Shown in pieces: positions 4,227 through 7,447 of a stretch of 64,000 nucleotides of DNA. This stretch comes from Elusimicrobium minutum (GTDB taxonomy: Bacteria; Elusimicrobiota; Elusimicrobia; Elusimicrobiales; UBA9959). Under the pieces are notes generated by a model. That model was given only the letters and a program-made list of their open reading frames with translations. It was not told where the DNA came from and did no database searches. The translations under genes and the position numbers were made by a program. The first letter of the stretch is position 1. Each line of letters starts with the position of its first letter. Location: positions 64,713 to 128,712 of the forward strand of contig DYIF01000005.1 in assembly GCA_020723765.1 (NCBI GenBank), given 5' to 3'.

Positions 4227-5225
4227 TTACCTTTTTTTAAAACAGCACTCGTTTCCCCACAAATCGAGGTATCCAACTTTATCCTCCGATTTTACCTCGG
4301 CTATACCGTAAAAAAAAGAAGAAGCGTAATCGTATTTTAAAGGAATGACAAATTCTCCTTTTTTATTTATAAAACCGAATTTTTTGTTCGACTCCACCAT
4401 CGCAAATCCTTCGGAAAAGTTATTAACGTAATCGTAGGCCGGCTTTATTACCTCTACGCCGTTTTTATCGACAAATCCCCATTTGTCCTTAACCTTCACT
4501 CTCGCCATATCTTCATAAAACAAATCTACCTCGTCGTATTTAAAATCTATTATTTTTTTATCTTTTTTATTTATCGCTCCCCATTTGCCGTTAAGTTTTA
4601 CCCATGCCATATCTTCGACAAAACCCATTGTAGCCTGGTATTTCAAAGGTATCAGCTCTTTATCGTATTTGTCTATAAAACCCCACAAGCCGCCGACATT
4701 GTAAGCTATGTAATCGTCTTTTGTTATCTCTCTTTTCTGGTATCTTGTTTCAAAAGTGTCCACGTACGGATTTTTTATGTTTTTTTTTCTGAACTCCTCT
4801 ATAAGTTTTTTGGCTTCTTTTTTGTCGTAAGATATCTCTATTATTATGTTTCCCTTCTTATCTATGCCTCCCCATTTCTCTCCCATATTTACCATTGCGT
4901 ATCCGTTATAAAAAGGCCCGGCGTAATCGTATGAAGGATTTATGGCGAGGCTGCCGTCGTAATAACAATATCCCATAAGATCGTTTCTTATGCATCTTTT
5001 CATTATATAATCCGAAACATCTTTATAATAAAAATTCTTTTCCCCGTACTTGTTTATAAACTCCTGAGCCGTTTCGTCTTTTTGAGCCGGAGAAATAGAA
5101 GACGATTTTAAAATAACCATTGTTTTTTCAAAATCTTTTTTAACCTCTTCTTTAAAATCCGTTTTCTCCGAAGAAAAAAGAAAAATGGGCGTCGAGCATA
5201 ACAAAAAAACTAACGATTTATTCAT
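4227..5225 (-). CDS. Exported WG-repeat protein
   Basis: Signal peptide-like N-terminus; repeated WGxIDKxGxxxIxxxYD units (WGFIDKYDKELIPLKY, WGAINKKDKKIIDFKYD, WGFVDKNGVEVIKPAYD, FGFINKKGEFVIPLKYD). Confidence 0.88.
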   Translation of the reverse strand: MNKSLVFLLCSTPIFLFSSEKTDFKEEVKKDFEKTMVILKSSSISPAQKDETAQEFINKYGEKNFYYKDVSDYIMKRCIRNDLMGYCYYDGSLAINPSYDYAGPFYNGYAMVNMGEKWGGIDKKGNIIIEISYDKKEAKKLIEEFRKKNIKNPYVDTFETRYQKREITKDDYIAYNVGGLWGFIDKYDKELIPLKYQATMGFVEDMAWVKLNGKWGAINKKDKKIIDFKYDEVDLFYEDMARVKVKDKWGFVDKNGVEVIKPAYDYVNNFSEGFAMVESNKKFGFINKKGEFVIPLKYDYASSFFYGIAEVKSEDKVGYLDLWGNECCFKKR

Positions 5226-5234
5226 AGCGAAAAT

Positions 5235-5729
5235 TTATCTATAATTTGTAAATATCAAACTTACTCCGAAATCTTTCGATTTTAACATGGATATTACGGC
5301 CTGCAATTCGTCTTTCGACCTTGAAAAAACTCTTACTGTATCTCCCTGTATCTGAGGGGTTACCTTAAACTTTGCGTCTTTTATAAGTTTAACCATTTCT
5401 TTGGCCTTCTCCGAAGGGATTCCCTGTTGTATCTTGACTATCATTCTGGCTCTTGAACCCAAGGCGTTTTCTATTTTTTCGACGGTAAAATTTTTTAAAG
5501 GAAGCCCTCTTTTGCTCATTCTGGTCAAAAGAACGTCGTATAAAGATTTGACCTTGTATTCGTCTGAAGAGGTAAGATATATTTTATTTTCTTTTTTATC
5601 CACGGTTATCTCCGAGTTTGAGTCTTTAAAGTCGTATCTGTTGGAAACCTCTTTCAAAGCTATATTAACCGACTCGTCCACAAGCGTCATATCGACTTTG
5701 GATACCACATCGAAACTAAAATCCGCCAT
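5235..5729 (-). CDS. yajQ: YajQ family nucleotide-binding protein
   Basis: MADFSFDVVSKVDMTLVDESVNIALKEVSNRYDFKDSNSEI; GGAGG upstream. Confidence 0.93.
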   Translation of the reverse strand: MADFSFDVVSKVDMTLVDESVNIALKEVSNRYDFKDSNSEITVDKKENKIYLTSSDEYKVKSLYDVLLTRMSKRGLPLKNFTVEKIENALGSRARMIVKIQQGIPSEKAKEMVKLIKDAKFKVTPQIQGDTVRVFSRSKDELQAVISMLKSKDFGVSLIFTNYR

Positions 5730-5738
5730 ACCGCCTCC

Positions 5739-6743
5739 TTATTTAATCCTCGATATTTCTTCGGATACCCTGCAGGCTTCTTCGTAGACATAACAAGCGT
5801 CTTTACCGTAAAGCCAGGAAATACCGGGGCATCTCGAGCATATCGTTCTATAATTACATTTAATACATTTTTTAGGCTCCATTTCAAGTTTTTTCCTCAG
5901 TTTAATCGCTTGCTCGGATTTCAAAATATCCTTTATCTTCTTTTCTTTTAAACTTCCCAAAGAAAAAGGGAAAGCTAAACACGGCAAAACATTTCCGTAA
6001 GAGTCTATTCCTATAACGCTTTTCGCCGCTCCGCAGGAAACATAGTCGATTTTATCGAACGATTTATCGTAAGATTTTAAAATTCCTTTTTTAAAATTCT
6101 TTAAAAACTTAAAATCCGAAACCGATAATTCGGCGCAAGAAAGATCTCCGTCGTTTCGAGGGGTTATTATCGGGTCTATTTTAAAATCCAAATTATTGTC
6201 TTTGGCGAATTTCTTTATCCATTTTAACTCTCCGGCGTTTTGCCTCATAACGGGGGTTTTAACGGTTATCCTAAAACCCAATTTCCGGGCCTTTTTAATG
6301 TTATCTACGGTCAAATCGAAGCTGTCGTTGCCGGTAATTTTGTTATGTATGGTCTTTGAGCCGTAAAGGCTTACGTCCATATCTCTAAGTCCAAGATCAT
6401 AAATATCCTTTATTTTTTTAAAATCGCAGTTTAGAGAAGAAAAAAGCTTAACATAGAACTTATGCTTTAACGCCAGTTTAATTATATTTGAAATGTCTTT
6501 TCTCAAAAGAGGCTCTCCGCCCGTTATGTTTATAAATATGGTTCCGATTTCTTTTAATTCTTTGAATATTCTTTTTATTTCCCCTAAAGACAACTCTCTC
6601 TCCGGCTTATAATTTTTATTATGAGTTTCTACAAGATAGCAATGAAGGCAGGAGTTAACGCATCTTCTGGTAACCTCCAGGCTTACAAACAAAGGGATAT
6701 TATTTTTGAAATAAAAAGAATAAAGCTTTTCGGATAATCTCAT
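5739..6743 (-). CDS. Radical SAM/SPASM domain protein, putative peptide maturase
   Basis: SLEVTRRCVNSCLHCYLVE (CX3CX2C), NITGGEPLLRKDI; C-terminal SPASM-like Cys set (CGAAKSVIGIDSYGNVLPC...KKCIKCNYRTICSRCPG). Confidence 0.92.
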   Translation of the reverse strand: MRLSEKLYSFYFKNNIPLFVSLEVTRRCVNSCLHCYLVETHNKNYKPERELSLGEIKRIFKELKEIGTIFINITGGEPLLRKDISNIIKLALKHKFYVKLFSSLNCDFKKIKDIYDLGLRDMDVSLYGSKTIHNKITGNDSFDLTVDNIKKARKLGFRITVKTPVMRQNAGELKWIKKFAKDNNLDFKIDPIITPRNDGDLSCAELSVSDFKFLKNFKKGILKSYDKSFDKIDYVSCGAAKSVIGIDSYGNVLPCLAFPFSLGSLKEKKIKDILKSEQAIKLRKKLEMEPKKCIKCNYRTICSRCPGISWLYGKDACYVYEEACRVSEEISRIK

Positions 6744-7063
6744 CTTAATTTTCTTTTAAAAAATCTTATATTTTTTATAATAATATGAGCAAGATACCCC
6801 GGATATCCGTTAAAAAAAGAGCAAACCCTTCCCAAAACGTCTTTTTTTTCTATAAAATGCGTCTCCATATCGTCGTCGTTTGAAATCCATATTTTTTCTT
6901 TTTCCAAACCGATTATTCTATGGACATATAGATTATCCGAATATCTGTATAAAATCATATCTCCCAATTTAAGAGACGATAAACATTCTTCGTAAAAAAC
7001 CAAATCCCCGTCTTTTAAAAACGGGCGCATACTCGTACCTTTAAGTTTTACCGCTTTTAACAT
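6740..7063 (-). CDS. S26-type (SipW/Sec11-like, Ser/His) peptidase, putative leader peptidase
   Basis: MLKAVKLKGTSMRPFLKDGDLVFYEE...GDMILYRYSDNLYVHRIIG; ATG at 7063 is preferred over the track start at 7123, which overlaps the upstream peptide ORF. Confidence 0.82.
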   Translation of the reverse strand: MLKAVKLKGTSMRPFLKDGDLVFYEECLSSLKLGDMILYRYSDNLYVHRIIGLEKEKIWISNDDDMETHFIEKKDVLGRVCSFFNGYPGYLAHIIIKNIRFFKRKLR

Positions 7064-7065
7064 TT

Positions 7066-7203
7066 TTAAGATTTTTTTCTTATCGTTTTGCAGGCAAGCT
7101 GGTTTATGGGTCCCGTCTGGCATTTACCGCACGCCAGAGCCGCGGTTTCAAAAACCTTTTGAGTCTTCATTTTAGGCTTTATATATCTCTTTTTTTTACT
7201 CAT
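7066..7203 (-). CDS. Putative RiPP precursor peptide, 45 aa, three Cys (not in supplied ORF track)
   Basis: Hand translation: MSKKKRYIKPKMKTQKVFETAALACGKCQTGPINQLACKTIRKKS*. Start overlaps the pqqD-like stop by 8 nt; stop is 2 nt before the peptidase ATG. Confidence 0.78.
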   Translation of the reverse strand: MSKKKRYIKPKMKTQKVFETAALACGKCQTGPINQLACKTIRKKS

Positions 7204-7447
7204 CTATTATCCCCTTATCTTTAAACTCCGATATCAAATCCTCTAAATCTTTATCTACCGTCCGTTTATCGGCGTCGTAATTTGACAATATCTTTTCCGA
7301 TATTTTTTTGCGATCTAAACCTTTATCTATCGATTTAAAAACAAAGGAAGCCGTTTCGTTTAACTCGTGTATCTTTTCATTCGAAGGGTCTATTATAAAA
7401 ATTTCTCCATCGATTTCTCTCCATATTATTTTATCGGATATCTTCAT
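7196..7447 (-). CDS. PqqD-like peptide chaperone / RiPP recognition element
   Basis: 83 aa: MKISDKIIWREIDGEIFIIDPSNEKIHELNETASFVFKSIDKG...ILSNYD...DLEDLISEFKDKGII, the PqqD-family pattern. Confidence 0.88.
   Translation of the reverse strand: MKISDKIIWREIDGEIFIIDPSNEKIHELNETASFVFKSIDKGLDRKKISEKILSNYDADKRTVDKDLEDLISEFKDKGIIDE

Follow-up and report, generated by a model that had tools for sequence, protein, structure and literature searches.

A nearly invariant peptide encoded with PqqD-like, S26 and radical SAM/SPASM proteins in Elusimicrobiota points to an undescribed modified-peptide system

The window, a stretch of 64,000 nucleotides from an Elusimicrobiota MAG (2.1 Mb, 98% complete), contained a cassette of four open reading frames on the minus strand, in which neighbouring frames overlapped by 8 and 4 nt or, in one case, stood 2 nt apart. 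PqqD proteins are leader-binding RREs, and the first frame (7447-7196, 83 aa) encoded such a PqqD-like RRE protein, the predicted leader-peptide binder (PF05402, 3.5e-13). The second (7066-7203, 45 aa) encoded the precursor peptide MSKKKRYIKPKMKTQKVFETAALACGKCQTGPINQLACKTIRKKS, which had no Pfam match and consisted of a leader with a YxxPxM motif, a predicted cut at ALA|C, and a 21-aa tail with three Cys and a terminal Ser. The codons of Ala24 and Cys25 (7129-7134, minus strand) border the bond whose cleavage is suggested by the -3/-1 pattern. The third frame (6740-7063, 107 aa, open further upstream to an ATG at 7123) encoded an S26B-type peptidase (PF00717/PF10502; Peptidase_S24 2.3e-8, Peptidase_S26 6e-6) with the candidate triad Ser11, His48, and Asp63. 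The fourth (5739-6743, 334 aa) encoded a radical SAM (rSAM)/SPASM enzyme (PF04055, 7.6e-22; PF13186, 9e-10) with CX3CX2C and SPASM cysteines. For all four, the coordinates and parts list of the initial annotation were right, with ORF positions and overlaps exact to the base, and the three enzymes have Pfam support.

Downstream of the cassette on the same strand, yajQ (DUF520; 5235-5729; PF04461, 2.7e-56) starts 9 nt past the rSAM stop and is possibly co-transcribed with it. In relatives, yajQ was not among the recurring neighbours and is therefore not part of the system there. A WG-repeat protein with a signal-like N-terminus was encoded further downstream on the same strand (4227-5225), and an endonuclease I gene lay upstream of the cassette on the opposite strand. 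As had been noted from the sequence at the outset, no exporter, other transporter or immunity gene was found in the flanks. Scans for promoters and terminators yielded no more hits than shuffled sequences did, and the Rfam scan of the window detected a tRNA only.

The peptide is a genuine gene and not a chance ORF. Across the same GTDB family, ~30 loci repeated the order PqqD-peptide-S26-rSAM and encoded a highly conserved peptide, which shows that the cassette did not arise by chance. The peptide profile matched 55 of 341 Elusimicrobiota genomes and, with clearly significant scores, ~11 of 291 Armatimonadota genomes. Family members shared a median pairwise identity of 76% in the peptide, compared with 46% in PqqD, 46% in S26, and 49% in rSAM, and the window peptide shared 73% identity with its relatives as against 28-32% for the enzymes. 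An alignment of 23 peptide sequences contained 16 invariant columns, and the peptide has hardly diverged between the two phyla.

The motifs were counted in 67 distinct peptides, a set that does not include the divergent Armatimonadota paralogue L242, which ends in Tyr. Exactly three Cys were present within the 21-23-aa tail of every peptide, and all 67 ended in Ser, though the penultimate residue took 11 different values. In the leader, Y7 and P10 were invariant and the residue after YxxPx was hydrophobic throughout (I, M, V, or L, with one F), so that a YxxPxL-type motif occurs here together with a PqqD-like RRE; YxxPxL is a conserved leader motif of lasso precursors, in which variants of it have been tested (PMC10368454). 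Around the predicted cut, Ala occupied -3 in 65 of the 67 peptides and Ala or Gly occupied -1 in all of them. We considered a LexA/UmuD-like cut at C|G less probable, because Gly followed the Cys in 62 of 67 peptides, not invariantly, whereas small residues were nearly always present at -1 and -3. Reading ALAC as a lipobox was rejected because a hydrophobic signal was missing from the peptide and -3 was Ala instead of Leu, Val, or Ile.

In addition to the order of the window, distant Elusimicrobiota families had the order PqqD-rSAM-peptide-S26, and the S26 gene lay directly 3' of the peptide gene in both arrangements. Most Armatimonadota loci had the peptide in an operon S26-PqqD-peptide, with the rSAM gene elsewhere; in genome G051 the rSAM gene was unlinked from the peptide too, and in G239 the peptide-S26 pair stood apart from PqqD-rSAM-kinase. 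Such separations would suit a peptide that serves as a structural or regulatory element, metal-binding or phosphorylated, with no rSAM chemistry and with an rSAM enzyme whose substrate is another molecule. We regard this as highly improbable, since the rSAM gene was adjacent in nearly all Elusimicrobiota loci, and a distinct close rSAM was found, mostly on other contigs, in 10 of the 11 peptide-positive Armatimonadota (325-375 bits, compared with 442 bits for the window enzyme and at most ~165 bits for other copies) and was scarce in Armatimonadota without the peptide. The loci L230-L237 had suggested that rSAM was absent from Armatimonadota, which was rejected when these close unlinked enzymes were found.

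Two further sets of loci were observed. A second, divergent copy of the cassette (L048, G003:C40:1-2100) contained an S26 frame that looks broken after ~50 residues. Distant rSAM loci in the phylum of G341 (L272-L276 and L269) carried an HprK-like kinase, S26, PqqD, or NTP_transf_5 with no recognised peptide, and they probably represent a wider superfamily with other precursors.

The S26 protein begins just before its catalytic motif and has no N-terminal membrane helix, the anchor of signal peptidase I; its score with the signal peptidase I model TIGR02227 was 43.2 of 47 bits, below the cut-off. Its profile aligned with human SEC11A at the SM.P and HRV motifs, and its model (pLDDT 91.5) matched the LexA and signal peptidase folds, so that the fold of signal peptidase I was found together with catalytic Ser and His. 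The Ser/His assignment made in the initial annotation was right: His48 was invariant, Asp63 nearly so, and position 11 was Ser except in several distant relatives, where it was Cys. In the latter, which comprise Endomicrobia and others (L151-L153, L158-L162, L165), the nucleophile was replaced by Cys (GGCMRP) and the His was kept. In L149, L150, L155, and L163, the S26 domain was fused in frame to large exported proteins (900 to >2,600 aa), continuing into a hydrophobic segment and then the large exported part; one of the four fusions was to a BNR/FlgD-like exported protein, and these fusions are a possible Rosetta-stone link to large exported proteins.

Cys28/32/35 and Cys237/255/293/296/302/305 of the rSAM enzyme were invariant across relatives, and its nearest solved structures were SkfB, PqqE, and 5wgg. 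A SPASM rSAM encoded with a short precursor and an RRE, as found here, is the general arrangement of rSAM-modified RiPPs. No NCBIfam rSAM family reached its cut-off, the best being TIGR04053 (111 of 395 bits), with 78.2 of 400 bits for the rSAM model of the ACGX system (TIGR04340), 51.7 of 300 for SkfB, 79.9 of 381 for the PQQ equivalog PqqE, and 78.5 of 265 for the mycofactocin maturase equivalog. The PqqD protein likewise remained below cut-off with the PQQ equivalog PqqD (21.9 of 46 bits), with ScmD (17.4 of 100 bits), and with its best NCBIfam model, the lasso PqqD chaperone model. The caution that the combination corresponds to no named RiPP class therefore stands. Elsewhere in this genome (C20:96000-155500; L079, L178) many radical SAM genes were clustered, which are only distant kin of the window enzyme.

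The CxxC...C tail, the proximity of the SPASM enzyme to SkfB, PqqE, and 5wgg, and the typical RiPP components would also fit an antimicrobial or signalling peptide of the sactipeptide or ranthipeptide type, with S26 as leader peptidase and the giant exported proteins described below as incidental neighbours. This explanation appears unlikely, because exporter and immunity genes were missing from the flanks, the tail hardly varies between the two phyla, unlike that of bacteriocins, no maturase model came near its cut-off, and a kinase was strictly co-inherited with the peptide.

This kinase, a protein of ~270 aa related to HprK and usually encoded directly upstream of pqqD, was a conserved neighbour in 41 loci. 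The kinase of L045 matched HprK_rel_A at 2.9e-8 with 33.1 of 200 bits and ScmC with 23.6 of 125 bits, both far below the cut-offs. HPr kinases share the PEPCK fold, which the kinase model (pLDDT 93.9) matched. The His, the P-loop Gly/Lys, and an Asp-Glu pair were kept, whereas lasso kinases have Asp-Asp; in the comparison with the lasso-kinase set His-Lys-Asp-Asp, the His, Lys, and Asp were invariant and the last residue was Glu. Prepilin-like proteins (neighbour clusters c5, c7, and c9, with an N_methyl motif in c7) recurred upstream of the kinase in ~20 family members (L044-L074).

The window itself contained no kinase gene; the kinase of this genome was encoded on another contig (C6:106885-107634, 1.5e-64), and no kinase was found in the genome of a congener without the peptide. 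Among the 341 genomes, 52 had both peptide and kinase, 3 had the peptide without the kinase, and 5 had the kinase without the peptide, the last counted at E below 1e-28 (Fisher ~1e-51, uncorrected for relatedness). In two of the three peptide-only genomes a contig begins at the locus, and among the kinase-only cases several were at contig ends or in incomplete genomes. The kinase was also present in all 11 peptide-positive Armatimonadota genomes. The strongest evidence for one pathway is that the genes are inherited together even where they are unlinked. A strict four-gene unit, the set given by the initial annotation, is rejected, since the kinase lies elsewhere in the genome and is inherited with the peptide; the kinase and probably more components are encoded outside the cassette. 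In lasso precursors of the paeninodin type, HprK homologues transfer phosphate to the C-terminal Ser, and PsmN adds a hexose to that Ser phosphate (PMC9266682, PMC8498205).

Exported proteins were encoded downstream in many loci. Among them, the giant family A3, with open frames of up to 10,482 aa, occurred in 25 of the 341 genomes, comprising 23 peptide-positive and 2 kinase-positive ones, and its gene was often followed by genes for a PQQ-like propeller and a UPF0164/PorV-like protein and in some cases for NTP_transf_5. One scanned propeller protein carried a Por_Secre_tail domain (1.7e-9). In this genome, NTP_transf_5, Rrf2, giant, propeller, and PorV-like genes were found at ~138.7-162.5 kb of contig C6, where a giant gene of ~18 kb containing an assembly gap (N run) preceded the propeller and PorV-like genes (C6:142848-161222; L192, L206). 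The kinase here adjoins glycan genes and the giant gene is ~35 kb or more away, so that in this genome the link of the kinase with the giant protein is one of co-inheritance only. The Rrf2 regulator and the NTP_transf_5 protein were also associated with the system. NTP_transf_5 was present in 22 of 22 peptide-positive family members sampled, and this association is weaker since the protein also occurred in some genomes without the peptide.

Some solo peptides of Armatimonadota adjoined secreted propellers or other secreted proteins. The propellers beside these peptides and beside the giants, together with the frozen core and the plan of PqqD, rSAM, and peptidase, raise the idea of a pathway like that of PQQ or mycofactocin, in which a small peptide-derived cofactor is made for an enzyme, perhaps a secreted PQQ-like beta-propeller. 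We consider this quite unlikely, since the PQQ and mycofactocin models remained below cut-off, neither pathway is known to feature a kinase or a terminal Ser, and the conserved neighbours did not include a dedicated oxidoreductase. The initial annotation had proposed a RiPP-like, cofactor-like, or non-exported role; this fits the nearly invariant peptide and the absence of an exporter, but the gene set is larger than the four genes it considered.

Considered together, the gene set, its conservation and co-inheritance, the catalytic motifs, and the folds make it probable that the cassette forms the central part of a RiPP-like maturation pathway whose product is fixed and surface-linked and would then not be a variable bacteriocin. 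From these findings and by analogy with the lasso peptides, we infer the following reactions, cleavage site, and surface role. The PqqD protein would bind the leader motif YxKPx[MIL], and the rSAM/SPASM enzyme would modify the three-Cys tail, most likely via a Cys-based cross-link. The HprK-related kinase from the other contig would phosphorylate the C-terminal Ser45, and the NTP_transf_5 protein may extend the Ser phosphate, a step reported for pseudomycoidin. Cleavage at ALA|C by the S26B peptidase would remove the leader and release a product of ~21 aa. The product would act at the cell surface, in many relatives in connection with the giant exported proteins and secreted propellers. Against this maturation pathway stand the Asp-Glu of the kinase, its scores far below the HprK-model cut-offs, the terminal Tyr of L242, the rSAM gene outside the peptide operon in most Armatimonadota loci, the lack of a known exporter, and the distance between the kinase and giant-protein genes in this genome. 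More tentatively, the phosphorylated, rSAM-modified peptide of fixed sequence could assemble, anchor, or license giant exported proteins (~2,000-10,500 aa) as well as secreted beta-propellers, making this a RiPP pathway for cell-surface biogenesis, in line with the S26 fusions of four relatives and the distribution of family A3; if true, it would offer a handle on how giant surface proteins are built in poorly studied, mostly uncultured bacteria.

RiPP cores mostly vary quickly, and few with a housekeeping-like role, such as PQQ and mycofactocin, are known; that this core stayed nearly the same in two phyla implies a role of this kind. An RRE, an rSAM, an S26 peptidase, and a kinase of the HprK type, combined with the invariant Ser at the C-terminus, constitute a small, directly testable pathway. 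No description of this gene combination was found in open-access papers, and the results point to a modified-peptide system that has a fixed product and has not been described before.

Several known systems share parts with it. The phosphorylated or phosphoglycosylated lasso peptides (paeninodin, pseudomycoidin; PadeK, ThcoK, PsmK, PsmN) have the same PqqD-like RRE, YxxPx-hydrophobic leader, C-terminal Ser, HprK-like kinase, and associated nucleotidyltransferase family, whereas the present system has rSAM/SPASM and S26 enzymes, a three-Cys tail, and Asp-Glu instead of Asp-Asp in the kinase, and no B2 protease or lasso cyclase was found in the window flanks or scanned conserved neighbours. Sactipeptides and ranthipeptides (SkfB) share the SPASM rSAM and a short Cys-containing core; the differences here are a stand-alone PqqD, a kinase partner, the lack of an exporter, a core frozen across phyla, and maturase models below cut-off. 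The SynChlorMet and HPr-rel-A/B systems (TIGR04248-04250, TIGR04352, 04353, 04355) likewise combine an HprK-related kinase with PqqD, and SynChlorMet also has an rSAM, but the scores were far below every cut-off, and to our knowledge these models do not include an S26 peptidase or this precursor. PQQ and mycofactocin follow the same plan of a PqqD-like chaperone, rSAM, peptidase, and invariant precursor, from which this system differs in the peptidase type, the added kinase, the unrelated precursor, and models that were not reached. The S26B signal peptidases SEC11 and SipW share the SxM motif, the His and Asp, and the LexA/signal-peptidase fold, whereas the enzyme here is ~110 aa long, lacks the N-terminal membrane helix, adjoins a soluble peptide gene, and has a Cys nucleophile in several relatives. 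Compared with these systems, known RiPP parts are combined here around a new, unusually conserved precursor family, which makes the system neither an ordinary annotated family nor categorically new.
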